A stretch of 64,000 bases of DNA from a virus: positions 1-64,000 of the IMG/VR virus record IMGVR_UViG_3300047457_000974. One strand, given 5' to 3'. Position numbers and translations under genes: made by a program. Within the stretch, counting starts at the first letter, position 1. The number at the start of each line of letters is the position of its first letter. The notes under the pieces are model-generated. The model was not told the DNA's origin. It saw only the letters and a list, made by a program, of their open reading frames with translations, and ran no database searches. Shown here piece after piece: positions 4,469 to 37,005 of this stretch.

Positions 4469-5308
4469 ATGACTGCTGCACCAACCCGCCGCCGCCGCGC
4501 CGCCCAGCAGGCGGATCCCGACCCCTCCGCCCGACCCTTCCCGCCGCCGACCGAGCACAGCGAAGCGCTGGTCGAGGCCAACCTGGGCCTGGCCCGGCAA
4601 GCAGCCTGGCGCTGGTCCCGCAAGACCGGCCAGCCGTACGACGACCTGGAGGCGGTCGCGTTCGTCGGCCTGATCCGCGGCTGCCGCCGGTACGACCCCG
4701 AGCGGATCAACCCGGGCAGCGGCAAGCCCTATGCCCTGAGCACGATCGTCTGCCCCTTCGTCAATGGCGAGATCCTCCACTGGTTCCGCGATCGCGGCCA
4801 TGCCGTCCGCTACCCCTCGAAGTGGCGCGAGGCCTGGGGCAAAGTCCAGCGGCTGATCGCTGACCCCGACGTGCCGGCCCACGATGTCGCCGCGCAGGCG
4901 GGCCTTAGCCCGGCGGAGCTCGACGAGATGCTGGCCAGCATGACCGGCACCGTCAGCCTCGATGACACCTTCGGCGCTGATGGCAGCCCACCGCCAGAGC
5001 CCGAGGAGCCCGATCGCCTGGCGCCGCTGCAGCGGCTGATCCTGCAGGCATGGAGCAACATGCACCCTGGCGACCAGAGCACGCTGCTGGCGTGGTGGAG
5101 CAAGCCTCACCGGCTGGCACTACCACAGGGTCCGCTTCAGCAATTCCACGGCCGATTGAAAGCGCTGTTGTCCGGTCGCAGCTTGCGAGAGGTGCTGCAG
5201 CTGGAGCTTTGCCAGGTGGAGCGGGTCGAGGTGGAGAAGAAGCCCCGGGCGCAACGTCGCAGCCGGGATCTGGCGGTGGCCGCGGTGCAGTTGGGGTTAT
5301 TGGCTTAG
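4469..5308 (+). CDS. Phage-encoded sigma-70 family factor
   Basis: A 279-residue sigma factor. Region 2 spans about residues 30-110 (ALVEANLGLARQAAWRW, then DDLEAVAFVGLIRGCRRYDP and RDRGHAVRYPSKWRE). A region-3-like segment follows (LIADPDVPAHDVAAQAGL). The last ~100 residues do not show a canonical region 4, so promoter -35 recognition may be unusual. The gene lies between terminase and portal and follows a CCCCACC-ATG leader. A late-gene sigma factor is the natural reading: it could redirect host RNA polymerase to the rightward morphogenesis genes. A host-derived stress sigma acting on the host is an alternative. Confidence 0.85.
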   Translation: MTAAPTRRRRAAQQADPDPSARPFPPPTEHSEALVEANLGLARQAAWRWSRKTGQPYDDLEAVAFVGLIRGCRRYDPERINPGSGKPYALSTIVCPFVNGEILHWFRDRGHAVRYPSKWREAWGKVQRLIADPDVPAHDVAAQAGLSPAELDEMLASMTGTVSLDDTFGADGSPPPEPEEPDRLAPLQRLILQAWSNMHPGDQSTLLAWWSKPHRLALPQGPLQQFHGRLKALLSGRSLREVLQLELCQVERVEVEKKPRAQRRSRDLAVAAVQLGLLA

Positions 5309-6931: not shown

Positions 6932-7663
6932 GTGGCTCGGACGTACAAGCGTGATGCGAGTGGGCGGTTCGCCAGCGGTGGCGGCAGCTCCGGCGGCGGC
7001 CGATCGGGCGGCAAGGCCGTTGCAAAGTCCAAGCCTGCCAAGCGCTCCGCACCGAAGAGCACCAGCGCTCGCGGTCGTGCCTTGCAGAATCAACGCCGTG
7101 CCGCCGCATTGGTCAGTGCCAGCCGTGGTGGCAGGGGGCCCAGCGCTAAGGCGATCCGGTCCGTGCTGACCGCACAGCGTGCGAGGGCGTTCTATGCGGC
7201 GACCGGAGGCGGCAAGAAGCGTTCAGCGGTGAAGCCAGCAACGAAGAAGACCGCCAAGGCGACGGCGGCAGCGGTTCGGGCTAGGACAAAGGCTGGGAGT
7301 GGGGTGAAGGCGGCAGAGGCAAGGGCGAGGAGTTCGGGGCGGCCTAAGGCGAGGGTTGTGGCTAAGCCTGCAGCGCAGCGGCCGGCCCGCGAACCTAAGA
7401 CCAATTCTCAAATCCTTTCTCAGACTCGGCGGATCATCGAAAAGGCGTCAGCACGCAAGCAGGCTGCGCGGCTTTCTTATGTCGTAGCGAAAAACGAGCG
7501 TCGCATTGCGAGGGCAACTGCTGTTCGGCAGGCCATCCTGAATCCGCCTAAGCCGAAGAAGTCGCGGAAGCCTCGCGATCCGAACCACTTGACCCCAACA
7601 CAACTTGCAAACCGACGTTGGGCAGCGTCGATGAATGCGTGGAACCGTGGCATGGGCCGCTAA
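6932..7663 (+). CDS. MARTYKRD-family basic protein A
   Basis: A 243-residue, Arg/Lys/Ala-rich protein starting at GTG. Residues 1-18 (MARTYKRDASGRFASGGG) are shared with four other proteins of this window (12453, 13506, 18142, 19140). A Ser/Gly linker follows, then a module (STSARGRALQNQRRA, GPSAKAIRS, LTAQRARAFY) shared with the protein at 19140. The C-terminal ~80 residues are unique (LTPTQLANRRWAASMNAW). The strong positive charge suggests nucleic-acid binding. It lies between portal and MuF genes, so an internal virion protein is likely. I know no function for this family. Confidence 0.75.
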   Translation: MARTYKRDASGRFASGGGSSGGGRSGGKAVAKSKPAKRSAPKSTSARGRALQNQRRAAALVSASRGGRGPSAKAIRSVLTAQRARAFYAATGGGKKRSAVKPATKKTAKATAAAVRARTKAGSGVKAAEARARSSGRPKARVVAKPAAQRPAREPKTNSQILSQTRRIIEKASARKQAARLSYVVAKNERRIARATAVRQAILNPPKPKKSRKPRDPNHLTPTQLANRRWAASMNAWNRGMGR

Positions 7664-7664
7664 C

Positions 7665-7679
7665 CCGGCAACCTATCCC
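7665..7679 (+). promoter_or_regulatory. CCGGCAACCTA leader motif, copy 1
   Basis: CCGGCAACCTATCCC, about 22 bases before the ATG at 7701. Near-identical copies lie at 14052, 15535, 18109 (one mismatch in the core) and 20120, each before a rightward morphogenesis gene. It may be a late promoter element for the phage sigma factor, or an RNA element. Confidence 0.45.
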
Positions 7680-7700
7680 GTCCATCTCCACCCACCACCC

Positions 7701-7856
7701 ATGACCCTCTACGAGGCCATCCGCGCCGCCATCGACGAAGCCACCAGCGAAGACGAAGAGATGAGCCTTCCCGAGTTGATCGGCACCCTGGAGCTGATCA
7801 AGGCTGAGCTGATCGCCGCTGCCCTGGAGCCTGACGACGAGGACGACGAAGAATGA
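7701..7856 (+). CDS. Small acidic protein preceding MuF
   Basis: A 51-residue, strongly acidic protein (MTLYEAIRAAIDEATSEDEE at the start, EPDDEDDEE at the end). The ATG follows a CCACCCACCACCC leader, the typical start context here, and the stop overlaps the MuF start as ATGA. A small assembly or chaperone role for the large neighbour is possible but not shown. No family recognised. Confidence 0.7.
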   Translation: MTLYEAIRAAIDEATSEDEEMSLPELIGTLELIKAELIAAALEPDDEDDEE

Positions 7857-10800
7857 CAATCACGCCAGGGCCACGACGCCTGGTTGGCGTCGCTGACGAT
7901 TACAGCAAGGCCCTGGATCAGCTGGAGCGCCGCGCCGTTGGCAATACCCGCGAGCTGCTGCGGCGCTCTCTGACCAATACGCTCGCCAGCCTCCGTCGGT
8001 CCTATGCGCTCTATCTGGAGGCGCTGGGCCCCATGAGCCGCGACCCATCCGGGCAGTTCATCCGCCGGCCGGGCAGCTACACCACCGCGGAGGCGACAGC
8101 GAAGTTCAGGGCGATCCTGGCCGATGCGCAGCGGTTCCTGCCCGACTGGGAGCTGGAGCAGTGGCGCATGCAGTACCAGGCCGATCTGCGGGAAGCCACC
8201 ACACTTGGCGTTGAACTGGCCAGCGAGCTGACGCGCATGCAGCGGGTGCCGGCACCAGCCCCAGGCATGGGGCCCACTACTCCCGGGCAGGTGCAGCAGC
8301 TGGGGCAGGAGCTGGTCGCCATGGCGCAGCAGCCACCGCAGGCCTCGCCGTTCGCTGGCGTCAACCCCGAGGCGGTGCGGGCCGCTGCCCTGCAGGCCAG
8401 CGCCATGATCCAGGGCGAGACGGCACGATTCCGCGATCAGATCGTGCAGATCGTCGGCGAGGGTGCATCCCGCGGCTGGGGCCCGAAGCGGCTTGAGCGC
8501 GACATCCGCCAGGCACTGGTCGGCGCTCGCGACCCGAACGGCATCACGAAGCGGTTGGGGCTGGAGCAACGGGCAGAGCTGATCGCCCGCAGCGAGCTGG
8601 CAGCGGCCTACTCCGGAGGGACGCTGCGCACCGCGCAGCAGCGGGGCATCGCCTACGTCAGGGTGATGGCCAGCAATGACGAGCGAACCTGCCCTACGTG
8701 TGCGGCGAGGAATGGCAGGGTCTATCCAGTTGATCGCGTGGCACTGCCGTTTCATCCGAGATGCCGCTGCGTTGCAGTCGAGGTGGAGAACGAGGCCGTC
8801 ACCGAGAAGGATCCTGCACTGCGCGCCACCCTGCTCGACTCCCAGCGCTGGCAGGACGAGCACGACCGCGGCGTTGAGGCCTATGCAGAGGCTCGGCACC
8901 AGGAGCGCATCGACGTGCTGCAACGGCAGGTGGACCGGGCCAAGGACGGCGACCAGAAGGATGCACTGAGCGCCCAGCTGCAGCAGCTGGTAGATCGCGG
9001 CCCAGACATGGTGAAGGCCCGGGCTGAATTGGCCCAGGCCTTGCGGACGCCTACCGCGAGCGAGCGGCGGCTATTTGGGAAGGATGCGAAACCGCTGCGG
9101 GAAAGCGTGCCACTGTTCGGTGGTGACGAGCCGCCCGCCGCCGCAGCACCGCCGCCACCGCCGGCACCTCGCAAGCCATCGGCGCCCCCGATGGCCCAAC
9201 GGGTCTCGCGCATGCGGACCTCGGACATCAGCGCCGATCCAGCCCGCTTTCAGTACAAGCTCAACGCCAACAGCGAAACCGGTGAAGTCGGCAGCCTGCG
9301 CGGCGTGCAGAAGTGGAACGAGGACCTGGCCGGCGTGCTCTCGGTATGGAAGGATCCAGCCGACGGCAAGACCTACGTCATCAATGGTCACAACCGGCTG
9401 GCACTGGCGAACAAGCTCGGCGCCAGCGAAGTGCCGGTGCTCAACATCGAAGCCAAGACGGCAGCAGAGGCCCGCGCGATCGGCGCCAAGCAGAACATCG
9501 CCAACGGCGATGGCACCGCGATCGATGCCGCCAAGTTCATGCGCGACACCGGTCAGCGCGCCAAGGACATGCTGGCCCAGGGCCTGAACCTCAAAGGCTC
9601 GGTGGCACGCAACGGCGCCGCGCTCGCGGACCTGCCCGACTTCATGTTCTCCGCCGTGGTGGACGGCCGCCTCTCGGTGGACCACGGCGCCGCCATCGGC
9701 CGCAGCGGCCTGACCCACGGCCAGATGGCAGACGCCTACAAGGTGCTGCAGAGCAAGCCATCGATGAGCGCAGCCACCTTGGACGAGGTGCTGCAGGCGG
9801 CCCGGGCCAGCAAGGCCCGCACGCGCGAGGAAGCAACCCTCTTCGGAACCAGTCAGGTAGAGACCAGCACCATGATCGAGCGGGCGGAGCTGGCCGCCAA
9901 GCTGCGCGCCGGGCAGAACCAAGAGATCAGAGTGCTTGACAAAGCCGCCGGCAAGGCTGATGTGCTGGCCGCCAAGGGCAACAGGATCGACGTGCAGCAG
10001 GCGCAGATCAGGGCAGCTGAGGCCCGCTCGCGTGCGGACGTGTTTGATCTGCTCAAGAACCAACCCAGCAGCGCCATCGCCAAGGCCCTGAACGATGCGG
10101 CGGCTGCCGTTCAGGATGCCCCAAACCGCGCGGCCAAGGCGCAGGCCACCAAGGACGGCAGCGCCCTGGTGAATGCCGCCATCGATCGCGAGCTGCGGCG
10201 CATGGCCGGCAGCAGCAAGGGCCTGCTGCTCAGCGTCGCCGACCTCAAGGCCAAGCGTGCCGGACAGCTCGCGCAACCGCCGGAGCTGGAGCTTGCGGCC
10301 AGGCCCGCGGATCTGACGCTCAGCAGGCTGCCGACGCGCCTGCTGGATCCCGCCACCGCCAAGGCCGGGTCCATCGGCTCCCTGCGACCCGATCAGGTGC
10401 GCGCTGATGCCGAGCGCTTCCAGTACAAGGCGGCAACAGACGCCAGGACCGGTGAGGTCGGCAGCCTGGAGGGCGTCAGCAAGTACGACCCGGCTCTTGC
10501 CGGCGTGATCAGCGTCTGGAAGGATCCAGCCAACGGGGAGACGTATGTCATCAATGGCCACAACCGACTGGCCGCCGCGAAGCGACTCGGCGCTGATGCC
10601 GTGAGCGTTCGCTATATCAATGCCGCCACTGCCGCTGATGCCAGGGCGATCGGCGCCTTGGCCAACATCGCCGAGGGCCAGGGAACGGCGATCGATGCCG
10701 CCAAGTTCATGCGGGAGAAGGGGTACACCGCTGCGGACATGCTGGCGATGGGCATACCGCTCAAGAAGGCTGCTGCGCGCGATGGCGCTAATCTCGCCAG

Positions 10801-11431
10801 CCTGCCGGATGACATCTGGTCTGCTGTCGTCAATGAAACGATCGGGATCGAAAAGGCCTCACAGATCGGCGGTGCTGGCCTCGACGCGCAGGGTATGCGG
10901 AATGTCGCCAGCGTCCTGGCCAGGCGCCCGAGCGCCAGTGCTGATGTCGTCCGGGAGCTGGTGGCTGCTGAGAAGGCGTCCATGCAGCAGGGGTCGACGA
11001 TGGAACTGTTCAACGACCCCGATGCGGAGCGCTTCAAGCTGAGCCGCGCGGATGTGACCCGTTCGATGCGCGATGAGCTGATGAAGGACAAAACCCTGTT
11101 CAGCACACTGGCTACCAGCAGGGCCGCTCAGGCACTGGAGAAAGCTGGCAGCCAACTGGACACCGCAGCGAATCGCCAGGCGTCCGCCGAGGTTGAGCGT
11201 GTGCTGAGCGTCTTCGATCAGATGAAGAACCTATCCGGCCCCGTTGGGCAGGCTCTGGATCGTGGCGCCAGAGAGATCATGGGCGCCCGCAACGCACAGG
11301 AGCGACTGGAGATTCAGCGCCGACTCAGGGGTGAAATATCAGGCGCTGTTCAGGAGGTGCTGAGCGTGATACCTGGTGGTCAACCACCGCCACCACCGGA
11401 AGCGCCAGGGCAGTCATCACTGTTCGGTTGA
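7853..11431 (+). CDS. MuF head protein fused to two ParB-like units (polyvalent-type protein)
   Basis: A 1192-residue protein. Residues 1-310 are the MuF/SPP1 gp7-like head morphogenesis part. Its conserved end shows paired cysteines and a Cys/His/Arg motif (RTCPTCAARNGRVYP near 280, then PFHPRCRC). A Pro-rich linker follows. Two long related units then start near residues 457 and 843. Each opens with RFQYK and EVGSL, carries a ParB-type YVINGHNRLA motif (near 509 and 899), then AIDAAKFMR and a helical tail. MuF proteins sit inside capsids, and such fusions are known as polyvalent proteins thought to enter the cell with the DNA. The ParB units could act on host DNA or nucleotides. The C-terminus ends with a short polyproline run and SLFG. 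Confidence 0.88.
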   Translation: MTITPGPRRLVGVADDYSKALDQLERRAVGNTRELLRRSLTNTLASLRRSYALYLEALGPMSRDPSGQFIRRPGSYTTAEATAKFRAILADAQRFLPDWELEQWRMQYQADLREATTLGVELASELTRMQRVPAPAPGMGPTTPGQVQQLGQELVAMAQQPPQASPFAGVNPEAVRAAALQASAMIQGETARFRDQIVQIVGEGASRGWGPKRLERDIRQALVGARDPNGITKRLGLEQRAELIARSELAAAYSGGTLRTAQQRGIAYVRVMASNDERTCPTCAARNGRVYPVDRVALPFHPRCRCVAVEVENEAVTEKDPALRATLLDSQRWQDEHDRGVEAYAEARHQERIDVLQRQVDRAKDGDQKDALSAQLQQLVDRGPDMVKARAELAQALRTPTASERRLFGKDAKPLRESVPLFGGDEPPAAAAPPPPPAPRKPSAPPMAQRVSRMRTSDISADPARFQYKLNANSETGEVGSLRGVQKWNEDLAGVLSVWKDPADGKTYVINGHNRLALANKLGASEVPVLNIEAKTAAEARAIGAKQNIANGDGTAIDAAKFMRDTGQRAKDMLAQGLNLKGSVARNGAALADLPDFMFSAVVDGRLSVDHGAAIGRSGLTHGQMADAYKVLQSKPSMSAATLDEVLQAARASKARTREEATLFGTSQVETSTMIERAELAAKLRAGQNQEIRVLDKAAGKADVLAAKGNRIDVQQAQIRAAEARSRADVFDLLKNQPSSAIAKALNDAAAAVQDAPNRAAKAQATKDGSALVNAAIDRELRRMAGSSKGLLLSVADLKAKRAGQLAQPPELELAARPADLTLSRLPTRLLDPATAKAGSIGSLRPDQVRADAERFQYKAATDARTGEVGSLEGVSKYDPALAGVISVWKDPANGETYVINGHNRLAAAKRLGADAVSVRYINAATAADARAIGALANIAEGQGTAIDAAKFMREKGYTAADMLAMGIPLKKAAARDGANLASLPDDIWSAVVNETIGIEKASQIGGAGLDAQGMRNVASVLARRPSASADVVRELVAAEKASMQQGSTMELFNDPDAERFKLSRADVTRSMRDELMKDKTLFSTLATSRAAQALEKAGSQLDTAANRQASAEVERVLSVFDQMKNLSGPVGQALDRGAREIMGARNAQERLEIQRRLRGEISGAVQEVLSVIPGGQPPPPPEAPGQSSLFG

Positions 11432-11433
11432 CG

Positions 11434-11439
11434 TATAAT
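11434..11439 (+). promoter_or_regulatory. Possible -10 box (TATAAT)
   Basis: A perfect TATAAT lies just after the MuF stop, 30 bases before the ATG at 11470. No convincing -35 is seen at 17 bases upstream. It may mark an independent promoter for the small gene that follows. Confidence 0.35.
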
Positions 11440-11469
11440 GAGCGGGCGACCACCGCAACCCACCACACC

Positions 11470-11736
11470 ATGGCCATTGATTTGACCGATAAAGCAATCC
11501 GCGAGAGCTTCGATGCAATGCTCGAAGCAGCCAGCACCTATCTGCAGCCGCAGGATCTGGTTCGCTGGCATCACAGAATCGAGAACTGCGACAACCTCAG
11601 CCAGGCTGCCGAGGTGACAACGGAAATGATCGGCCGGCCCATGAGTGCCACGGACCGGCGGATCGCAGATGAGGTTCGTCAGTCGCTGATCCTGCTGGGC
11701 GACCGGGTCGGCGCCAGCGAGGGATCAGCGGCCTGA
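11470..11736 (+). CDS. Hypothetical protein after MuF
   Basis: An 88-residue helical protein with no family recognised. The ATG at 11470 is preferred over an upstream TTG because it follows CCCACCACACC, the common start context, and because the residues before it look unconstrained. Its stop lies one base from the stop of the convergent cyAbrB gene, so no terminator separates them. Confidence 0.65.
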   Translation: MAIDLTDKAIRESFDAMLEAASTYLQPQDLVRWHHRIENCDNLSQAAEVTTEMIGRPMSATDRRIADEVRQSLILLGDRVGASEGSAA

Positions 11737-11737
11737 C

Positions 11738-12199
11738 TCAGAACGGCGCCAGCTCCCGCTCGGCATCAGCCGGTGCGTTGTCGTAGGTGACAACAGCAGG
11801 CTCCGCCGCGGGAGCGGGGCACGCGGCAGGGGCGGCAGGAGCATCGGCGGCAGCCTTGCGCAGCACCAGGGCGCCATCGATGTGCTCGATGTCCACCCGG
11901 TCGCCGTCGGCCACGCCGATCAGGGCGCTGTAGCCGGCGGTGACGGGGATCACGCCGGTCTTGCTGGCCTTGACGTTGAAGCTCAGCGGCTTCCCGCGGC
12001 CAGCCTTGACCACCTTCGGCTCAGGCGTGCCGAGGTCCACGCCCTTGGCATCGATGATGGCCTCGTAGTAAGCGGAGAACAGAATCCGCTCGCTGCCATC
12101 CTTTTTTGTGGCGACATAGCCGCAGGCGCGGGCAATGTCCACCTTGGACAGGTGAGACAGCTCAGCGACCTTGGCCAGCAGTTCAGCGCCCTTCAGCAT
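11738..12199 (-). CDS. cyAbrB-type transcriptional regulator
   Basis: A 153-residue homologue of the cyanobacterial AbrB family. The N-terminal part has the hallmark KGAELLAKVAELSHLSKVDI, ARACGYVATKKDGSERI and YYEAIIDAKGVDLG segments. The swapped-hairpin AbrB-like domain follows at about 82-115 (GVIPVTAGYSALIGVADGDR, LVLRK). A ~38-residue Ala/Pro tail is extra. In cyanobacteria cyAbrB proteins regulate carbon and nitrogen metabolism genes. A phage copy could modulate host transcription or control lysogeny. It is leftward inside the rightward morphogenesis region, with a 22-bp palindrome in its upstream region. Confidence 0.88.
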   Translation of the reverse strand: MLKGAELLAKVAELSHLSKVDIARACGYVATKKDGSERILFSAYYEAIIDAKGVDLGTPEPKVVKAGRGKPLSFNVKASKTGVIPVTAGYSALIGVADGDRVDIEHIDGALVLRKAAADAPAAPAACPAPAAEPAVVTYDNAPADAERELAPF

Positions 12200-12231
12200 C
12201 GTGGATCGTGGTGGGGAACGCCTATTGTACC

Positions 12232-12253
12232 GCTACGGTTTCGATACCGCAGC
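12232..12253. promoter_or_regulatory. 22-bp palindromic operator-like site 1
   Basis: Two half-sites of the form GCTnCGGTA face each other around a central CG (here GCTACGGTT and ATACCGCAGC). It lies between the divergent cyAbrB gene and the gene at 12256, ending two bases before that ATG. Related sites are at 46418, 47722, 54795, 59799 and 62075. A dimeric repressor site is the likely meaning. Confidence 0.7.
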
Positions 12254-12255
12254 AA

Positions 12256-12456
12256 ATGGATTCACCACCTGACGATCTGGCGGCTTTCCTGCTGCTGCAT
12301 GCCGCCGTGAGCGCACGCGACGAGGAGATCACGCGCCAGGCGCTACGGCAAGTCGCGACCGAGATGCCCACCACAACCGGCCACAAGGTCGCATCGACGC
12401 TGCATCGCTCGATCAGCGGCGGCGGGCGGTTGTGGCTCAGCCGGCTGGTGGCTTAG
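12256..12456 (+). CDS. Hypothetical protein divergent from cyAbrB
   Basis: A 66-residue helical protein (MDSPPDDLAAFLLLHAAVSA at the start). It begins directly after the palindromic site and overlaps by 4 bases the end of the convergent gene at 12453. Reading further upstream in this frame gives a sequence that is only the shadow of cyAbrB, so the ATG at 12256 is chosen. No family recognised. Confidence 0.55.
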   Translation: MDSPPDDLAAFLLLHAAVSARDEEITRQALRQVATEMPTTTGHKVASTLHRSISGGGRLWLSRLVA

Positions 12457-13178
12457 GCCTTGGGCTTGCGGCGGCGGGGACGCTTGGGCTTGCCGCCGCC
12501 GCCACCGGTGTCACCAGCGGCCGGCAATGCCCTGCCGCCACTGGATCCACTGACGCGCCGACGGCCGCCGCTCCTGCTCCCGCTGATTGCACCGGCCGAG
12601 CTTGGCCCCGTGATTTCGGCAATCCCTCGCAGCCTGGCAGCATCGGCCTGGGCCAGTTGCCGCAGGGTGCCGCGCAATGTTCCAGCGACGCTGCCCGATC
12701 GTCCGCTGGAGCCACTGGAACCGCCGGAGCCATTGCCCCGTGGCGCCGACCTGGCGCTCGGCGCCTTGATCGGCTGACCGGTGATCTGTTCGATGCCTCG
12801 AATGAACCTGGCGTCTTGTTGTGCCAGCTCTCGCAGTGTTTCGCGCAACGTGTCGGCAATGCGAGGCTTCTTGCCGGCGGCTGGCGTTGTATTGACCCGC
12901 ACGGCGTTGCCAGTGGTCGTCATCGCTCCGCCGCGGCGTGCCGCTCGGGCGGCGCTCGCCGCGCTCTTGTAGGCAGCTTTGGCTGCCGTTGGCTGAGCCT
13001 TGCCCTGGAATTGCGCGGTCCTGGCGGCTTGCTCCCTGGCGTTGCGACGCTGCTCGGCGCGTGTTCCGACCTTGCCGCCACGCGGTCCCGATCGTCCGAC
13101 CTTGGCCGGGCCTCGGCCGCCACTAGAGCCTCCTCCAGTAAAGCGACCCTTGGCATCGCGGTTGTAGGTTCTGGCCAT
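12453..13178 (-). CDS. MARTYKRD-family basic protein B
   Basis: A 241-residue basic protein. Residues 1-17 (MARTYNRDAKGRFTGGG) are the family tag. The next module (GPRGGKVGTRAEQRRNAREQ, then PTAAKAAYK) is shared with the proteins at 13506 and 18142. The C-terminal half contains a repeated ~30-residue helix (TLRETLRELAQQDARFIRGI and TLRGTLRQLAQADAARLRGI, each followed by ITG) separated by Gly/Ser linkers, then a Lys/Arg end. It is leftward, in tandem with two other basic genes. Function unknown; nucleic-acid or capsid association is inference. Confidence 0.75.
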   Translation of the reverse strand: MARTYNRDAKGRFTGGGSSGGRGPAKVGRSGPRGGKVGTRAEQRRNAREQAARTAQFQGKAQPTAAKAAYKSAASAARAARRGGAMTTTGNAVRVNTTPAAGKKPRIADTLRETLRELAQQDARFIRGIEQITGQPIKAPSARSAPRGNGSGGSSGSSGRSGSVAGTLRGTLRQLAQADAARLRGIAEITGPSSAGAISGSRSGGRRRVSGSSGGRALPAAGDTGGGGGKPKRPRRRKPKA

Positions 13179-13207
13179 GGCAATAGCTCTCGCTCTTTAG
13201 GTTTTCG

Positions 13208-13502
13208 CTACTTCTTGCGCTGACGCTTGGGCTTCTTCTCAGGGTTGGCATTCCGCGGACCCGGCCGAATGTTGCTCTTGGCCTTGCGACGACTCCGCCT
13301 GCCTGGTGGCATCGCGGCCAGCTGCTGGTCGTAGAGCTGCGCCGCCCTGGCAGCCGGTTTGCTGCCAGCCGCAGCCAGCCGTGCGGCGCGTCTGGCGCGA
13401 CGCTTGATCTGCTGCACGCCGAGCTTTCAGCGTCCCGGCCTTGAACTCGTGGAACACCTTTGCGACCTTGCGGTCGCCGGCTGTGGGCTTCTTCTTGGCC
13501 AT
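13208..13502 (-). pseudogene. Small Lys/Arg-rich protein, apparently frameshifted
   Basis: The frame starting at 13502 reads MAKKKPTAGDRKVAKVFHEF, then KAGTLK. This resembles the start of small basic KVMHEFKxGTLKS-type proteins (DUF6496-like). After that point it turns into an unnatural Gln-rich sequence. The natural continuation (QQIKRRARRAARLAAAGSK, ending KKPKRQRKK) lies one base out of frame and stops at 13208. A single-base difference near the GCTGAAAGCTC stretch would join them. This may be a true frameshift, a sequence error or a recoding site. Confidence 0.5.
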
Positions 13503-13505
13503 GGA

Positions 13506-14021
13506 TCAGCCCTTCCCGCCACCCATCCGGGTAGCGCGACGTGCAAACCGTGCGGCACTTCTAGCCGCCTTATACGCAGCCTTGGCATTGGTCGGCGCAG
13601 CTTTCGACCGGAAACGCTGAGTGCGCTCAGCCTGAGCCTTTGCGTTACGGCGCTGCTGGGTCTTGGTGCCTGATTTGCCGCCACGTGGGCCGCGTCGCCT
13701 GTCCATGGCCGCTGCGGCAGAACGTGCTGCCGCCTTAGCCGTCACTGCGGCGGCACGACGAGCGGCCTTGCTGCCCTTGCCTGCCGCACCATCACGCTCT
13801 GCCTGCGCATTCCGATTCTGAGCCTTGATGTATCGCTCTCGCTGCGGGTTGCGCTTGCCCTTGCCGCTGAGCATTGAGCTGCTGACCTCACGATTCATCG
13901 CCTGCTTCCTGGCTGCCACCGTGCCGCCCGATTTCCTCCCGCCGCTCCTGCCGCCGCCGGATCCACCGCCACCGCCTCCGGCAAAACGGCCGTTGGAGTC
14001 TCGTTTGTAGGTGCGAGCCAT
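13506..14021 (-). CDS. MARTYKRD-family basic protein C
   Basis: A 171-residue basic protein starting at the ATG at 14021. The tag MARTYKRDSNGRFAGGGGGG begins it; sequence upstream in the same frame is not family-like and was excluded. A middle part rich in Arg/Ala/Lys is followed by the module GPRGGKSGTKTQQRRNAKAQ and PTNAKAAYK shared with the proteins at 12453 and 18142. Here that module is C-terminal, whereas in the other two it follows the tag directly, so modules have been shuffled. Function unknown. Confidence 0.75.
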   Translation of the reverse strand: MARTYKRDSNGRFAGGGGGGSGGGRSGGRKSGGTVAARKQAMNREVSSSMLSGKGKRNPQRERYIKAQNRNAQAERDGAAGKGSKAARRAAAVTAKAAARSAAAAMDRRRGPRGGKSGTKTQQRRNAKAQAERTQRFRSKAAPTNAKAAYKAARSAARFARRATRMGGGKG

Positions 14022-14051
14022 GATCAAGGCAGGGGAAGCTAGCCCAGCTTT

Positions 14052-14066
14052 CCGGCAACCTATGCC
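14052..14066 (+). promoter_or_regulatory. CCGGCAACCTA leader motif, copy 2
   Basis: CCGGCAACCTATGCC, 16 bases before the ATG at 14082. It restarts rightward transcription units after the leftward islet. Confidence 0.45.
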
Positions 14067-14081
14067 AGATTCCCTGCCACC

Positions 14082-14591
14082 ATGCCGGCGCCAATTCCGA
14101 CGCTCAACCCACTGTGGCGGCCCAATGGCAGCAGCGCCCGCGACGATCGCGAGCTGATCAGGGGCTATGCCATGTGGCCGGTCTCGGCCTACAACCTGAC
14201 GCAACTGACAACGGTGCTCAACCGCGTTGCCGATACCTCCGCAGCAACCGTCAAGCAGGTGCAGGCCTGGATTGATGAGATCGAGAACCTGGAGCAGGAC
14301 TGGTCGGACAAGGTGGCTGATGGCACCGCTCATCTCGGCAACGTGCAGCGCTACCGCGGCCCGGCGCCTAGTACCACGCTGACCCGTGATGATCTGCGCA
14401 AACGCGCAGACGTGCTGGAGTGGGATACAAGCCTGCTGCAGGTGGAGTACGAAAGCGGCGGCAGGCCTGATGCCACCGCTGGCGGCACGATCTCGAACCG
14501 GATTGCGCAGCTCAAAAGCCGGATCCTGGAGACGATTGGCATCAAGGCCAGCGATCGCTCCGGCGGGCAGGCAACACTGGTGCGCAGCTGA
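14082..14591 (+). CDS. Hypothetical neck/connector protein
   Basis: A 169-residue protein, helical in the middle (NLTQLTTVLNRVADTSAATV, WIDEIENLEQDW). It is the first gene of the neck and tail cluster; its stop overlaps the next start (TGATGG). Position suggests a head-tail connector or joining protein, but no conserved family signature is visible. The start follows CCCTGCCACC. Confidence 0.6.
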   Translation: MPAPIPTLNPLWRPNGSSARDDRELIRGYAMWPVSAYNLTQLTTVLNRVADTSAATVKQVQAWIDEIENLEQDWSDKVADGTAHLGNVQRYRGPAPSTTLTRDDLRKRADVLEWDTSLLQVEYESGGRPDATAGGTISNRIAQLKSRILETIGIKASDRSGGQATLVRS

Positions 14592-15061
14592 TGGCCACCG
14601 ACTTCGCCGCCTACGCCAACCTGCGGTTCCTGTGGCCGCAGCCGGCAGCGATCACCACCCTGCGCAACGGCATGCCATCACCTGCTGCCCTGGTGGCCAT
14701 CGAGGTGTTTGCCAAGGGTGAAACCGGTTCACCCGAGCAGATTCCATCGCTGCACATCGGCACTCGCACGATGGAGGGCTACATCACCCGATGGGCGCCG
14801 CTGCCATCCGGCGCCAGCTGGCTGGCAAGCGGTAACAGCTGGAGCTGGACCGATACTGGACTGATGCCTCCAGGCCTGGCGGCAGAAGCCCGCGGCAAGG
14901 CGTACCTGGGACCGCTGGAGTCGCTGCCCACCCTCGGCGGACTGGTGGGTGAGGTGACGATCATGCAGTTGGGTGGCACGTTCGGGATCGGTGGTATCGG
15001 CGCTGAGCTGCGCACCGCGCTGGGCGATGCGATCCGCCTGCAGTTCGCCACAGTGCAATGA
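14591..15061 (+). CDS. Hypothetical neck protein
   Basis: A 156-residue protein rich in Gly, Trp and Pro, with a beta-rich feel (HIGTRTMEGYITRWAPLPSG). It is coupled at both ends: the start shares bases with the previous stop, and ATGA overlaps the next gene. Position between a possible connector and the tail-completion protein suggests a stopper or neck role. No family recognised. Confidence 0.6.
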   Translation: MATDFAAYANLRFLWPQPAAITTLRNGMPSPAALVAIEVFAKGETGSPEQIPSLHIGTRTMEGYITRWAPLPSGASWLASGNSWSWTDTGLMPPGLAAEARGKAYLGPLESLPTLGGLVGEVTIMQLGGTFGIGGIGAELRTALGDAIRLQFATVQ

Positions 15062-15531
15062 GCATTCGCGTCAGGGTCGCCAGCGATGGGATCACCGCCA
15101 GGGCTGAAACGGCAGCGCAGCGTGCTACGCAGGCGGTGATGCGGGAATTGTTCGCGGCGTTCCAGCAGAGCTTCACTGCGCAAGCATGGGACTGGCCGCA
15201 GGCCACGGTCAGGCGCAAGGCCACCAAGCGACGCAAGGCGGTGATCGCTGAGTCACCGCGGAACCTGATCGATGTTGGCAATCTCCGCCAGTCCGGTTTC
15301 TGGCAGATGACCGGCTCATACTCAGCCCGGTTTACATGGTCAGCCGACTACGCCACTGCCGTGCATGAGGGTTACCGGCGATTTCGTGCGGATGGCAGCT
15401 TCTCCACCTGGCCGGCTCGCCCCTGGACGCATGCCGTACTGGGTCGGGTGACGGTGCCGGGGATTCAGCCGTTCCCGATGCAGCAGCGGCTGAAGGATGT
15501 ATGGCTGGCGACGTTTCGGGCGGGGCGTTGA
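15058..15531 (+). CDS. Tail completion protein, HK97 gp10-like
   Basis: A 157-residue protein. The N-terminal half is helical (AAQRATQAVMRELFAAFQQS). A central region is followed by the pattern YATAVHEGYRRF and ARPWTHAVLG, which resembles the VHEG...PARPF pattern of HK97-gp10-like head-tail joining proteins. ATGA overlap with the upstream gene. It would complete the tail end that meets the connector. Confidence 0.6.
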   Translation: MSIRVRVASDGITARAETAAQRATQAVMRELFAAFQQSFTAQAWDWPQATVRRKATKRRKAVIAESPRNLIDVGNLRQSGFWQMTGSYSARFTWSADYATAVHEGYRRFRADGSFSTWPARPWTHAVLGRVTVPGIQPFPMQQRLKDVWLATFRAGR

Positions 15532-15534
15532 CGG

Positions 15535-15549
15535 GCGGCAACCTATCCC
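15535..15549 (+). promoter_or_regulatory. CCGGCAACCTA leader motif, copy 3
   Basis: GCGGCAACCTATCCC lies between the tail completion gene and the chaperone gene at 15568. The 13 bases from GGCAACCTATCCC are the same as in copy 1 at 7665. Confidence 0.45.
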
Positions 15550-15567
15550 ACCCACCCACAGGCAGTC

Positions 15568-16290
15568 ATGCCAGAGCTTCCGTTTCAGGTTGCGCCGAAG
15601 CGACGCACCGAGATGATTTCGGTAACTATTGATGATGACACCTATAGTCTTGAGTTTCCTGTTTACCGCAGCCTTCGCGCTGGCGAAGAAATCCAGATTC
15701 GCGATGCAGATTATCAGGCCGCTGTCTATCGCGAATGCTCGCGATTTGCTGATGCGCTTGTCAATGAGGGCATTGAGGAGTTATACGCTCAGCGACTTGC
15801 TATCCGCTGCTTGAGCACCAGGCTGGGTATCCCCATCTCGCTGACTGCGGAGGAGCATCGCGCATTGTTGCGCCATGCCGCCATGGTGGCCGACATTCAG
15901 TCGGTTCTGGCTGCCGAATACGCACGGCAGGTGCGACGCACCGTTACCGCGCTGATTGCCCATCGCCTGCCCGGGTGCAAGGGCTGGACTGAGGATGACA
16001 CTGATCGCGCCGTACCTGGTCCGCTGCGGGACGCGATTGCTGCATTCGCTGATCGTGAGCGCAATGCCAATCAGCCGCAACGCACGCCGGAAGAAATGAT
16101 CGAATCCATGGCTGAAACGCTGGGAAAGCTCGGGCCGGAACCATGCCGAAACCCACCGACTGGACAGCTATCTACTGGCGCTGCCGAGAGCTCTGGCCAG
16201 CTGCTCCTGAGTTCGGACCCGATCGATTCGCATCCCTCCCCGTCAACTACATCCTCGCTGCCATTGAAGCCGGCACCCGCCGAGAGTTGA
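15568..16290 (+). CDS. Tail assembly chaperone G
   Basis: A 240-residue protein with a beta-rich N-terminus (MISVTIDDDTYSLEFPVYRS) and a helical rest. Residue ~187 coincides with an in-phase G GGA AAG slippery heptamer at 16122. The residues after that point are Ser/Pro-rich and look like read-through of another frame. This is the G part of a G/GT pair. The short form ends at 16290; the long form continues in the -1 frame to 16787. Such chaperones bind the tape measure protein and recruit tail tube subunits. Here the tail tube gene follows at 17030. Confidence 0.75.
   Translation: MPELPFQVAPKRRTEMISVTIDDDTYSLEFPVYRSLRAGEEIQIRDADYQAAVYRECSRFADALVNEGIEELYAQRLAIRCLSTRLGIPISLTAEEHRALLRHAAMVADIQSVLAAEYARQVRRTVTALIAHRLPGCKGWTEDDTDRAVPGPLRDAIAAFADRERNANQPQRTPEEMIESMAETLGKLGPEPCRNPPTGQLSTGAAESSGQLLLSSDPIDSHPSPSTTSSLPLKPAPAES
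16122..16128 (+). promoter_or_regulatory. -1 programmed frameshift site GGGAAAG
   Basis: The heptamer reads G GGA AAG in the frame of the gene at 15568, the same slippery sequence used in lambda G/GT. After a -1 slip the reading passes through GCT CGG GCC GGA ACC ATG into the 16143 frame without a stop. The fusion would be about 406 residues. No clear downstream pseudoknot was identified. Confidence 0.75.
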
Positions 16291-16787
16291 CACTGCTGCA
16301 GGATGCAGAGCGGCCGATCGCCTACCTCCATCAGCGGCTGATCGCGGTCAACTCCACCGCCGATGGCCCGCCGGTGCCGTCACTCGATGACCTGTGCCTC
16401 TACCGCATCCGTGAACCAGGCGACGCACCACCGGCTGAAGCTGGCGCGGCGATGCTGGCGCTGATCCGTGCGCAGCAGTTCCCCGGCTGGGCGCTGACGT
16501 TCTATGAGGCGCTGGAAGCCGTCGGCCGCGATCAACCGCCACCGCCAACCCTGGCCCTGGTGGCAGAGGATGCAATCCTGCTGGCGCCGCGGTTCACGCC
16601 GGGCGGCTGGCAGGGATTCCTGATCGCGGAGGGTCCGGCGGCAGGTCAGCCGCGGGCGTTCTATCCGCCGAATCAACCGGAGGCGATGACGTGGCTCGCA
16701 GTGCCAGCCGCTCCTGAGCCAGGCGCAGTGTGGGCGGCGGCATCTGCATCTCTGCCCACTCTGCCGCCTCCCGGTAGCAGCGATTGA
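16143..16787 (+). CDS. Tail assembly chaperone T extension (G-T fusion C-terminal part)
   Basis: This frame encodes MPKPTDWTAIYWRCRELWPA and a further ~195 residues. It is open upstream to the slippery site, so the likely product is the C-terminal part of G-T rather than a free protein, although the ATG at 16143 has the common ACC-ATG context. The WxxIYWRCREL pattern resembles T domains of tail chaperones. It would contact the tail tube protein during tail polymerisation. The last ~190 bases overlap a leftward AP2-like gene. Confidence 0.7.
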   Translation: MPKPTDWTAIYWRCRELWPAAPEFGPDRFASLPVNYILAAIEAGTRRELTLLQDAERPIAYLHQRLIAVNSTADGPPVPSLDDLCLYRIREPGDAPPAEAGAAMLALIRAQQFPGWALTFYEALEAVGRDQPPPPTLALVAEDAILLAPRFTPGGWQGFLIAEGPAAGQPRAFYPPNQPEAMTWLAVPAAPEPGAVWAAASASLPTLPPPGSSD

Positions 16788-16926
16788 CCGCCAGCTCGGC
16801 TGCCAGCACCGAACGGTAATAGCCCAGGCTCCAACGCCGGCCGCCCCACCACACACGGGCCTGGAACGGCCGGCTGGGGTTGGCCTGCGGCACGTAGGAC
16901 ACACCGCGGGGATAGGCGCCGCTCAC
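16594..16926 (-). CDS. AP2-like DNA-binding domain protein
   Basis: A 110-residue protein. Residues 8-55 (GVSYVPQANPSRPFQARVWW, GGRRWSLGYYRSVLAAELAV) match the AP2/ERF-type pattern of three beta strands followed by a helix, as found in phage homing-type proteins and cyanobacterial small proteins. The C-terminal part overlaps the T extension on the other strand and may be poorly constrained. It is leftward inside the rightward tail operon. Confidence 0.55.
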   Translation of the reverse strand: MSGAYPRGVSYVPQANPSRPFQARVWWGGRRWSLGYYRSVLAAELAVNRCYREAAEWAEMQMPPPTLRLAQERLALRATSSPPVDSADRTPAADLPPDPPRSGIPASRPA

Positions 16927-17005
16927 GGCTTGCGACAGGTAGCTGCCGTCAGTATTCCGGCCCTGTTGTCAAGCCATGGGGCCGGCTTGTGAGATCGGGA
17001 CTTCT

Positions 17006-17029
17006 GACGGGAGTCCACAGGATCCCGTC
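17006..17029 (+). promoter_or_regulatory. Hairpin abutting the tail tube start codon
   Basis: GACGGGA and TCCCGTC form a 7-bp stem with a 10-base loop; the stem ends directly before the ATG at 17030. It could modulate translation of the abundant tail tube protein or protect the mRNA 5' end. Confidence 0.35.
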
Positions 17030-17860
17030 ATGCCGCAGGTCTACTCTCAGGCGTATGGCTACAACTTCTACATTCAGCTGATCAAAAAAGAAGAGCTGGA
17101 TTTCGCTGATCTGAACCTTGGTGGAATTGGTGTCGGCAAGTTCCTGGACATCAGCACCCTGGCCAGCAACGCATCCTCTGTCGTGAAGGTCGGCACCGTT
17201 GCCACGCTTGGCATCGGTGTCGGCACCAACAAGGCCACCACCAAGGCGGCACTGTCAAGCAACGTCGTTACATTGACGTTTGCTGCTGCCCATAGCTTCA
17301 CCGTGGGGCAGACGATCGCCGTATCCGGCTTCACCGGTGCGCTTGCCGGCATCAATGGCAAGGCCACGGTCGCCAGCGTGACAACATCCAGTCCGTTCAC
17401 GCTGACCTATGCGCTCACTGCCGCCAACATCGCTGAGGCATCGGTGGTGGGTTCCGTCCTGCCGGCCCTGAAGCTGGACGGCACCGATGCACCGATCCGC
17501 CTGCTGGGGTTGACCAATGCCGCTCCGCAGGAGGGTGAGGGCGAGGAAACGGTGATCACCTACGACGACGAGGCCAAGTCGTTTGATACCAGCATCGCCA
17601 CCAGCAAGTCTTTCAGCTGGACGATCGAGGGTGTGACCGATCACAGTGACGCGGCCTACAAGCTGCTGCGCCTGGCCTCCAAGGAATCGGTGCGGGAAGG
17701 CCTGATGGTGAAGTACGCCAGGATCGGTCCGGTCGGCAAAACCGAGACCACGTTCGGCTTCGGTCGTATCACCGGCTTCAATGAGACGCCACCTGCTGGC
17801 GGCATCGTGAAGTGGTCGAGCGGCATCAAGGCCTATGGGCCGTATGAGCTGGAGTTCTGA
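17030..17860 (+). CDS. Major tail (tube) protein
   Basis: A 276-residue protein. The ATG at 17030 (MPQVYSQAYGYNFYIQLIKK) is chosen because residues upstream in this frame are not protein-like. Residues ~60-140 are a Thr/Val/Ala-rich Ig-like insertion (VVTLTFAAAHSFTVGQTIAV). The C-terminal part has tube-like beta segments (KSFSWTIEGVTDHSDAAYK, TTFGFGRITGFNETPP). Position after the G/GT chaperone and before a strong terminator fits an abundantly made tube protein. Confidence 0.75.
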   Translation: MPQVYSQAYGYNFYIQLIKKEELDFADLNLGGIGVGKFLDISTLASNASSVVKVGTVATLGIGVGTNKATTKAALSSNVVTLTFAAAHSFTVGQTIAVSGFTGALAGINGKATVASVTTSSPFTLTYALTAANIAEASVVGSVLPALKLDGTDAPIRLLGLTNAAPQEGEGEETVITYDDEAKSFDTSIATSKSFSWTIEGVTDHSDAAYKLLRLASKESVREGLMVKYARIGPVGKTETTFGFGRITGFNETPPAGGIVKWSSGIKAYGPYELEF

Positions 17861-17863
17861 TCC

Positions 17864-18082
17864 CTAGGGCTCTGCATTGGCCCCTGCCGGTTCGCCGGTG
17901 GGGGCCTTTTGCCGCGGCAGCGTGGCGCGTGCCTGCGCCATGGCGTAAGCGCGTTGGGCGATGCCCCAGTCCAGGATGGTATGCGCGATGCGACGCAGTG
18001 CCTCCACGTCACCGGGGCCTGCCTGTTCAATCAGCCGTCTCCATTTCTCATGGCTCAGTTGTTCATGCAATGGCAATGGCAT
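17864..18082 (-). CDS. Small hypothetical protein overlapping a terminator
   Basis: A 72-residue protein (MPLPLHEQLSHEKWRRLIEQ at the start; DVEALRRIAHTILDWGIAQR). It resembles short helical proteins of cyanobacteria and their phages, without a name I can give. Its last ~15 codons lie inside the terminator of the tail tube gene on the other strand, so both functions share the same DNA. The ATG at 18082 is preferred over one further upstream. Confidence 0.55.
   Translation of the reverse strand: MPLPLHEQLSHEKWRRLIEQAGPGDVEALRRIAHTILDWGIAQRAYAMAQARATLPRQKAPTGEPAGANAEP
17879..17910 (+). terminator. Strong rho-independent terminator with TTCG loop
   Basis: A 12-bp stem (GGCCCCTGCCGG pairing with CCGGTGGGGGCC, including two G-T wobbles) closes a TTCG tetraloop and is followed by TTTT. 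It lies 18 bases after the tail tube stop. Confidence 0.85.
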
Positions 18083-18108
18083 GGCGGTGCGGCGGTTGGG
18101 TGAGGTTG

Positions 18109-18123
18109 CCGGAAACCTAGAGG
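18109..18123 (+). promoter_or_regulatory. CCGGCAACCTA leader motif, variant copy 4
   Basis: CCGGAAACCTAGAGG, 19 bases before the ATG at 18142. It differs by one base from the other copies in the core and restarts transcription after the terminator at 17879. Confidence 0.4.
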
Positions 18124-18141
18124 CAATGAGCATCAGCGGCC

Positions 18142-19119
18142 ATGGCCCGGACCTACAAGCGAGACAGTCGTGGGCGGTTCACCTCTGGTGGCGGAGGTGG
18201 CGGAGGTGGCGGATCTGGTCGCAGCCGTAAGACACCAAAAACCAGTATCGATGGACGACGCGGGCCTCGTGGTGGCAAATCAGGTACCAGGGCGGAGCAA
18301 GCACGAGCGAAACGTGAGCAGCAGGCCAGAAGCCAGCAATTCAGAAGCAAGGCTACGCCAACAACAGCAAAGCTGGCTTACAAGAAAACACAAGGCGAAG
18401 CACGCAAAGCAGCCAAGGCTGCCACGAGCAGGGCAAGCCAGCGTCGCTCAAATCCAGCGGCAAAACGTGCTCGGGACATGGCAAACAGGACTGGTACGGC
18501 CAAAGGCAGGTTTTACGAGGATGGGCAGACTCGGACAACAATGAGTTTGGCTCAACTGCGATCTGCCGTTCGTGGTTACGCCAGATCACAAGGAGTTAAT
18601 AACAGGCAAGACTTCTTAGAGCAGGTATCGCTAGCCGCTAACTTGACGCGAACAGGCGCCAGGGGCATGGCTGAAGGACGAATGCCAAAAACTCGCGGTG
18701 AGTGGGAGCAAATCTATAAAACTTTGGTTCGCGTTCCTGATTACACCAGAGGGCAAAAGCAACGTCGTGGAATGGTCAACGGTATTGACATTCACAGAGA
18801 TTTCAGGCCATGGGCTGTATTCGGCCTGAATCCCAAAACAGCAACCGCACAGGATGTCAGAAACAGGTTCCGCAAGCTAGCGATCAAGGTTCATCCTGAC
18901 ACTGGCGGCAGCGCCAGGGATTTCGAGCGGCTGAAGCAGATGCGCGATTCGATGTTGGCATTCAGGCCAGCATCAAAGACAGCCGGCAGCAGCAGGCGCC
19001 GCAGCAAACAGGCTGCATCGGCATCACCTGCTGCAACCGGGCCGATCAATAGCCAGCGATTGTTGCCGCCATCACGCACCACTAAGCCGCCGCGCAGACG
19101 TCGCAAGCCGGCAAGCTGA
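18142..19119 (+). CDS. MARTYKRD-family protein D with C-terminal J domain
   Basis: A 325-residue protein. Residues 1-22 are the tag (MARTYKRDSRGRFTSGGGGG). The module GPRGGKSGTRAEQARAKREQ and PTTAKLAYK follows, as in the proteins at 12453 and 13506. A unique middle part (about 110-215) precedes a DnaJ-like segment at about 221-275: AVFGLNPKTATAQDVRNRF, then RKLAIKVHPDTGG with the HPD tripeptide after a basic helix. J domains stimulate Hsp70 ATPase, so recruitment of host DnaK to virion assembly or to injected DNA is possible. The 3' half is more AT-rich than the 5' half. A 23-base start region is shared with the next gene. Confidence 0.8.
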   Translation: MARTYKRDSRGRFTSGGGGGGGGGSGRSRKTPKTSIDGRRGPRGGKSGTRAEQARAKREQQARSQQFRSKATPTTAKLAYKKTQGEARKAAKAATSRASQRRSNPAAKRARDMANRTGTAKGRFYEDGQTRTTMSLAQLRSAVRGYARSQGVNNRQDFLEQVSLAANLTRTGARGMAEGRMPKTRGEWEQIYKTLVRVPDYTRGQKQRRGMVNGIDIHRDFRPWAVFGLNPKTATAQDVRNRFRKLAIKVHPDTGGSARDFERLKQMRDSMLAFRPASKTAGSSRRRSKQAASASPAATGPINSQRLLPPSRTTKPPRRRRKPAS

Positions 19120-19139
19120 GTTACTGAGCATCAGCAGCC

Positions 19140-20111
19140 GTGGCCCGAACCTACAAGCGAGACAGCCGCGGACGGTTCGCGGGCGGGGGAGGATCCAGCG
19201 GCGGCGGCAAGAAGGCATCAGGCGGGAAGCGGAGCGGTCCGAAGACCACCAGCGCCAGGGGAAGGGCACTGGCCAATCAGCGACGGGCAGCGGTGCAGGT
19301 TCGAGCGAACCGCGGCGGCACGGGGCCGAGTGCGAGAGCTGTTCGATCGATGCTCACGGCTCAGCGAGCACGGGCGTTCTATGAATCGACCGGGACCGGC
19401 ACGAAGCGATCGGCCATGCGGGCGGTAAGCAGCACGGCAAAGGCCAAGGCCGCACGGGCAGAGACGCGGGCGAAGCGGCAGGCAGTGAGGGAGAATGCGG
19501 CGAAGCGACCGAAGGCGCAGGCAGTGGCAAAAACGACATCACGGCGGTTGAGCGGTATGGGCCGAGCGCCTGCGACGAGGCTGCCAGCCGCAAACTCTGA
19601 CGCATACAAATACAACAAGTCCGGCTTCATTGCCACCCCACAGGAAAGAGCACGGATGCGCGGCAGGGATCGCGCTCGTGAAAAGAACGCTGCTCTCGCG
19701 CAGCAACAAGCAGCAGGAGAACTTAGGGCGGAACGTCGAGCTGCAAGAAAGATGACATCAGATCGCACAGAGATTATGAGCGTGCTTCGCCACTCGCCAA
19801 CGTTCAACGCGGCCGAAAGATTTATGCAGCGTTTTGCTAAGCGAGTTGACGAAAACTTTAGACAGGGCGTTCAGCTTGAACGCCAAAAGTCGGCATTGAC
19901 GGCCAAGGCGATCAAGATGCAGCAAAAAGCAGCAGAGCGAAAAGCTCAGGGCAAAAAGATTACTCAGACCATGGAATCAAACTTTCAGCAGCTCAGGCAG
20001 CAGATTGCCAAAATTGACAGAAGTTTGACAACGCGACGTAGGGCGATGGATGTTTTCCGCAGCCAGTCTCGGCGCGTGACGATCAACACCAGAGAGCGCA
20101 GCAGGTACTGA
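19140..20111 (+). CDS. MARTYKRD-family basic protein E
   Basis: A 323-residue protein starting at GTG with tag MARTYKRDSRGRFAGGGGSS. Residues ~35-85 repeat the module of the protein at 6932 (TTSARGRALANQRRA, GPSARAVRS, LTAQRARAFYESTG). The C-terminal ~140 residues are charged and probably coiled coil (QLERQKSALTAKAIKMQQKA, NFQQLRQQIAKIDRSLTTRR). The upstream 15 bases and the start are nearly the same as for the gene at 18142, which suggests gene duplication followed by exchange of the C-terminal part. Position before the tail terminator and tape measure genes supports a virion role. Confidence 0.75.
   Translation: MARTYKRDSRGRFAGGGGSSGGGKKASGGKRSGPKTTSARGRALANQRRAAVQVRANRGGTGPSARAVRSMLTAQRARAFYESTGTGTKRSAMRAVSSTAKAKAARAETRAKRQAVRENAAKRPKAQAVAKTTSRRLSGMGRAPATRLPAANSDAYKYNKSGFIATPQERARMRGRDRAREKNAALAQQQAAGELRAERRAARKMTSDRTEIMSVLRHSPTFNAAERFMQRFAKRVDENFRQGVQLERQKSALTAKAIKMQQKAAERKAQGKKITQTMESNFQQLRQQIAKIDRSLTTRRRAMDVFRSQSRRVTINTRERSRY

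Positions 20112-35481: not shown

Positions 35482-35485
<4 letters not shown>
35132..35485 (+). CDS. BppU-like tail fibre adaptor 2
   Basis: A 117-residue protein with the layout of the gene at 32272: an N-terminal beta part, [33 protein letters not shown], then [13 protein letters not shown]. It is coupled by ATGA to the collagen-like fibre gene. It probably anchors that fibre to the baseplate. Confidence 0.6.

Positions 35486-37004
<1,519 letters not shown>

Positions 37005-37005
<1 letters not shown>

Follow-up and report, generated by a model that had tools for sequence, protein, structure and literature searches.

Labelled genes in the structural region

The window, by which we mean the whole stretch of DNA analysed here, comprises 64 kb out of a 66,208-base virus record. 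As the preliminary description had claimed, it holds five genes whose products share a near-identical N-terminus, here called the label. All five are present where they had been placed, with starts at 6932 (gene A, + strand), 13178 (gene B, −), 14021 (gene C, −), 18142 (gene D, +) and 19140 (gene E, +). The longer open reading frame listed for 13506 is an upstream-start artefact. A computed pI of about 12 is found for each of A, B, C, D and E. The features of the cluster are as follows.

5435..6910, + strand: portal gene, landmark of the cluster (PHROG 145, 1.9e-79)
6932..7663, + strand: gene A, GTG start; label, front module M1, payload M4
6932..6982, + strand: label of gene A, VARTYKRDASGRFASGG
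7058..7228, + strand: M1 front module of gene A, also in gene E (module profile)
7388..7660, + strand: M4 payload of gene A (module profile; same C-terminus behind another front in L131:1692-2321)
7853..11431, + strand: MuF minor head protein with two ParB-like regions, landmark (Pfam PF04233 3e-10; PHROG ParB-like matches)
11738..12199, − strand: AbrB-like gene (PF14250), neighbour of labelled genes (Pfam 1.8e-7; synteny)
12453..13178, − strand: gene B; label, M2 front module, two M5 repeats
12597..12866, − strand: stretch of gene B holding the two M5 repeats (module profile)
12927..13094, − strand: M2 front module of gene B (module profile)
13208..13417, − strand: small open reading frame, an M14 payload without label (module profile)
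13506..14021, − strand: gene C; label, then M6 and M2 (L121 holds a relative with 94% identity)
18142..19119, + strand: gene D; label, M2, M8, J-domain, basic tail
18256..18423, + strand: M2 front module of gene D (module profile)
18511..18738, + strand: M8 of gene D, helical region (module profile)
18805..18966, + strand: J-domain payload of gene D, HPD motif at 18892-18900 (Pfam DnaJ 3e-5)
19140..20111, + strand: gene E, GTG start; label, M1 front module, M7 helical payload
19245..19415, + strand: M1 front module of gene E (module profile)
19602..20054, + strand: M7 payload of gene E (module profile; behind front M9 in L096)

Across uncultured contigs a common backbone is observed, which runs from TerL through sigma factor, portal, MuF, an AbrB-like gene in reverse orientation, a 66-residue gene and a connector-like gene to small structural-region genes, the major tail protein and the tape measure. 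Labelled genes occupy varying gaps of the portal-to-tape-measure part, on either strand, and a single one lies outside the backbone (L142:10374). The cultured phages KBS-S-2A, whose portal shares 79% identity with the L149 portal, and S-H1 (portal 75%) have the same neighbourhood without a labelled gene, and labelled genes are absent from the examined regions of PSS2, S-CBS2 and S-CRES3. The genes are therefore accessory and dispensable for assembly.

Several other genes of the window are worth recording. The AbrB-like PF14250 gene is found in the late cluster of the window and of L135, L136, L139, L148, L149, L151 and L132, usually opposite to the structural strand; it recurs beside labelled genes as a neighbour, and its membership of the system is that of a candidate. 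The MuF protein, a polyvalent-type head protein, has 1,192 aa, and the MuF gene of relatives encodes only about 360-420 aa. Its sequence RDPSGQF was considered as an extra copy of the label and rejected, as it is not conserved in MuF relatives. Between terminase and portal, 4469-5308 encodes a sigma-70 region 2 protein (PF04542 1.2e-5) in a position conserved with PSS2, S-CBS2 and S-CRES3. A strongly conserved small basic protein with the pattern NKPKRTP.HP.KSH.V.A...RFGQQGV.GSP lies at 50421-50714, and its gene often adjoins labelled genes; it is also present at L135:10562, L144:12427, L149:9099, L151:18195 and L156:11403 and in the cultured phages KBS-S-2A and S-H1. Downstream of the structural genes there is a collagen-like gene with GPQGPAGAT repeats (35482-37005), and a short leftward gene at 61357-61785 contains GGNDTINGGDGDDIL calcium-binding-type repeats. 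The unlabelled M14 frame at 13208-13417 overlaps a further reverse-strand frame at 13239-13502, which begins MAKKKPT..KV..V.HEFKAGTL and thereby resembles the start of a separate L139 gene (9465-9650); the overlap possibly reflects a fusion, a frameshift or a decayed gene.

Peptide-level conservation of the label and swapping of modules

The N-termini of A to E follow the pattern [M/V]ARTY[K/N]RDxxGRF[A/T] and continue into a Gly/Ser linker. For the family the label is [M/V]ARTY[K/N]RDxxGRF[A/S]xxG, again followed by a Gly/Ser linker. With a 39-base degenerate DNA pattern it is found at at least 118 loci in IMG/VR viral contigs, and 72 non-redundant proteins with unlike bodies made up the set for label analysis. 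In other members only YxRDxxGRF[A/S] remains of the core, preceded by basic residues, as in MARRYARDNRGRFSS and GRRTYARDNRGRFAS, and the variants of L164 and L166, such as GRRTYARDNRGRF, keep the core residues with changed flanks. The labels of C, D and L137 give weak matches to PHROG 38358, to which no function is assigned, with a best E of 0.0072.

The preliminary description had allowed for the label being a general low-complexity coincidence. Such a chance origin is rejected by several observations. The reversed DNA pattern gave 0 matches (36 records), and a tag-like N-terminus occurs in 46 of 678 called genes in 21 stretches against 0 in a reversed-protein control, a count that measures specificity and not frequency, as these stretches were picked for carrying the label. 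The glycine at position 17, which the search pattern does not demand, is invariant in the 72 proteins. Finally, synonymous codon choice inside the label varies almost as much as in the remaining parts of these genes, and at most positions it is close to expectation. With varied synonymous codons and fixed residues, the constraint therefore acts on the peptide: the label is conserved as protein rather than DNA, and conservation at the DNA level is rejected by the codon diversity.

Outside the uncultured viral contigs, a scan of 84,980 GTDB species genomes returned the label pattern in one contig, which belongs to a cyanobacterial MAG. Identical 39 bases are found near both ends of this contig, so it probably represents a circular 44-kb phage assembly. 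The MAG match, the similarity of the portal to cyanophages and the PF14250 AbrB-like gene together suggest a cyanobacterial host. Cultured relatives with the label were not found by tblastn against 50,697 phage records, a search weakened by low-complexity masking, and direct reading of the examined parts of PSS2, S-CRES3, S-CBS2, KBS-S-2A, S-H1 and MED4-184 gave no label either. A literature search for the motif strings returned no match among the papers covered.

Behind the label, 15 modules were defined and local profiles were run across the labelled proteins. One module had been described as common to A and E and another to B, C and D, and the profiles agree (M1 and M2, respectively). The further claim of uniqueness for the remaining parts is valid for the window but not beyond it, since the J-domain with M8, the M4 payload, the M5 repeats, M7 and M6 recur in other viruses. 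The front modules M1, M2, M9, M12/M15 (referred to as VTR), M10, M11 and M6 are joined to C-terminal payloads in many combinations. M8 accompanies the J-domain in every relative found, and the pair stands behind three fronts, which are M2 in the window, M1 in L022/L041 and VTR in L135/L141. Likewise, the M5-M5 payload of gene B is found behind M2, M9, M1 or VTR, the M4 payload of gene A behind M1 in the window and VTR in L131, and the M7 payload of gene E behind M1 in the window and M9 in L096. M14, the lone small frame of the window, is mostly labelled in other viruses. The front module M9 (NRLTRDNAGRITSVGG.GATARGGRLRT) looks like a further copy of the label.

Within one genome the same payload type is found in 0 of 20 pairs against about 3.1 expected (p ~0.02, with related genomes treated as independent). 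Front modules behave in the opposite manner, and their sharing within a genome exceeds expectation with weak significance (24 of 74 pairs against 16.4 expected, p ~0.03, the genomes not being independent), and we draw no conclusion from it.

J-domain and zincin-like payloads

Gene D carries a J-domain with an HPD motif, as seen by profiles and by fold. The Pfam DnaJ match of 3e-5 lies below the family cut-off, and the J-domain of the relative in L135 reaches 7.8e-7, above the Pfam cut-off (29.6 vs 27.8 bits). Profile matches of gene D in the PDB are J-domain proteins, with a best value of 1.2e-6. The AF2 model has a pLDDT of about 80-91 in the J-domain and low confidence in the remainder of the protein, and Foldseek returned J-domain matches with a probability of up to 1.00, but with E above 0.08. 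The HPD motif and the J-domain helices are shared with DnaJ/Hsp40 proteins. Unlike these, the protein has no recognised G/F, zinc-finger or client-binding domain, and its J-domain is placed behind a phage label and a front module. For A, B, C and E there is no family in Pfam, PHROG or NCBIfam; weak matches to BLOC1_2, TRIM_CC and DUF2065 are below cut-off, look like coiled-coil or composition matches and were discarded.

In the labelled relatives L147, L137 and L099 the protein ends in a domain with an HExxH...E signature. We describe this domain as a zincin-like metallopeptidase, given the signature and a weak profile and fold match. Its profile matches in the PDB are lethal-factor-type zincins only (best E 0.001), the group with which phage zincins were compared by Iyer et al. 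(PMC5512222). The AF2 model, of modest confidence, contains the elements expected for such a fold (a helix, three strands and the two helices of the active site), and the top Foldseek matches are zincins, with weak values (E 0.28). A search with the zincin domain only recovered L164, L165 and L166, and in all three the label lies upstream; the record of L164 holds four labels and that of L166 five. The same search returned a fusion between the zincin and a MuF minor head protein (PF04233 1.9e-15) in L167, and in L168 a long protein with an ADP-ribosyltransferase and zincin-like domains. This 1,689-aa open frame (L168:3408-8477) carries KGDxxGHxFHGNQ seven times between predicted effector domains, possibly a second class of short marker.

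The motif is also present in L150, an unrelated phage. There the forms (V)ARTYKRDKNGRFGGGGG, NRTYKRDRDGQFSSGGG and RQYKRDADGRFGSGGG precede zincin-like domains and an ADP-ribosyltransferase (PF03496 1.2e-9), in genes that alternate with those for TerL, the portal and a ClpP-like prohead protease. The L150 label is often internal, between domains, and occurs twice in one protein. Distant relatives of the ADP-ribosyltransferase are found in GMA6 and Marky, and the label motif is absent from the examined regions of these phages. Within L150, a papain-fold toxin-like domain (L150:10002-10862; PF15644 2.4e-4, just under cut-off) follows the short motif NHPGHPDQKSHGRKGG.

A candidate loading label on putatively virion-borne proteins

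The family is built from a short N-terminal label, an exchangeable basic front module and an exchangeable C-terminal payload, and we propose that the label serves to load accessory, host-acting proteins into the virion. Build and function taken together, we give this proposal slightly better than an even chance. The label, perhaps with the basic front module, would bring the protein into the head during assembly through a procapsid, portal or MuF component or through packaged DNA as candidate partners. The labelled proteins would be ejected with the DNA, and the payload would then act in the host cell. The J-domain of gene D would recruit host DnaK-type chaperones, and in relatives the zincin payloads would have host or virion proteins as cleavage targets.

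A tag with exchangeable C-termini, as envisaged in the preliminary description, is strongly supported by the swapping of fronts and payloads across viruses, by the peptide-level conservation and by the predicted host-acting payloads (J-domain, zincin). Capsid loading and action after injection are only indirectly supported, by the gene position among head, neck and tail genes, the L167 fusion, the L150 cluster and the precedent of T4. We count for loading the zincin payloads behind the label, which were also found through the zincin and not the label (L164, L165, L166), the ADP-ribosyltransferase and zincin-like domains behind the motif beside the head genes of L150, and the MuF-zincin fusion. 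Against it stand the lack of a recognised domain in most payloads, which are just basic, the internal label of L150, which may point to a linker, the close cultured relatives that lack these genes, and the weak profile and fold match of the zincin assignment.

The closest precedent is bacteriophage T4, whose diverse injected internal proteins have only a capsid targeting sequence in common (PMC3012670). Here, as in T4 internal proteins such as IPI, a short conserved N-terminal peptide is found on otherwise highly diverse small proteins, and in both cases the genes are accessory, in T4 with a relation to host range (PMC3012670). The differences are a label sequence that appears unrelated, an extra exchangeable front module, and a virion location that is here a prediction. 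The examined genes of the window include no recognised prohead protease, so any processing of the label would differ from T4. The T4 targeting peptide is not known to contain an RDxxGRF core.

Phage-type zincin and ADP-ribosyltransferase domains have been predicted to be virion-delivered effectors, and polyvalent proteins carry them among head genes for predicted delivery with the DNA (Iyer et al. 2017, PMC5512222). L168 and L150 belong to this type. Polyvalent proteins are one long polypeptide with several disparate domains, as in L168, whereas payloads here lie on separate small labelled proteins, one payload for each window protein, and most bodies are basic and have no known domain. Their enzymatic effector domains were not found in A, B, C and E, and D has only the J-domain. 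MuF polymorphic toxins (PMC5576092) combine a conserved N-terminal virion-associated region with exchangeable C-terminal domains. Our family likewise joins a conserved N-terminal part to exchangeable C-termini, and L167 has a MuF-zincin fusion. In contrast to these toxins, the conserved part of our family is a peptide of about 17 residues and not a MuF domain, for which A to E gave no match in Pfam or PHROG, and no immunity genes were identified. In kind, the family varies the theme of T4-type labelled internal proteins and of polyvalent effectors, and its label and three-part build are new.

The strongest rival to a loading label is that these very basic proteins serve mainly in packaging DNA. 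As histone-like, largely disordered, Lys/Arg-rich virion nucleoproteins they would condense and neutralise the packaged DNA, the label would aid DNA or capsid binding, and most C-termini would be further DNA-binding bodies. The high pI of all five products, a Lys+Arg content of mostly 20-30% across the family and the low AF2 confidence outside the J-domain of D agree with this. Condensation of DNA has no use, however, for J-domain and zincin payloads, and the genes are accessory, vary in number and do not repeat a payload type within a genome. These features argue against DNA packaging as the whole story, and we regard it as unlikely. Somewhat less likely still is action inside the cell late in infection, outside the virion, with the label binding a host or phage partner in the transcription, translation or chaperone machinery. 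A J-domain would be sensible during assembly too, and the location of some members on the opposite strand beside the AbrB-like regulator gene suggests separate control; the same motif is nevertheless found beside ADP-ribosyltransferase and zincin domains in the L150 head cluster, and the zincin of L167 is fused to a MuF head protein.

A role of the label as a processing or spacer motif, that is, a flexible linker or protease site between domains of larger proteins with no address function, stays a rival given the often internal motif of L150, which occurs twice in one protein. The different short motif repeated between domains in L168 and the likeness of M9 to a second, internal label copy fit as well. 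In the cyanophage-like family, however, the label stands almost always at the extreme N-terminus, where there is nothing to link or cut, and nine of its residues are near-invariant, unlike those of ordinary linkers, which makes this role improbable. Maintenance of the label by DNA-level recombination or gene conversion between copies, and not by function, would fit the excess of shared front modules within genomes and is largely refuted by fixed residues at near-expected codon diversity and by the L164 and L166 variants, which preserve the core and not the flanks, so that we give it hardly any weight.

Beyond the proposed loading label of this family, we tentatively raise a wider reading, which we think rather doubtful: unrelated phages may have a portable short loading code in common, YxRDxxGRFx(G/S)GG and probably others such as KGDxxGHxFHGNQ, and may exchange effectors by recombining payloads behind the label. 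If the label loads proteins into virions, it would provide a simple sequence rule by which uncultured, probably cyanobacterial viruses could be screened for injected proteins. The T4 strategy, with one label for many host-acting proteins that can replace each other, would then have a second, independently built case, and cargo loading into siphovirus heads would gain a candidate tag. The J-domain payload would mark the host chaperone system as an early target.
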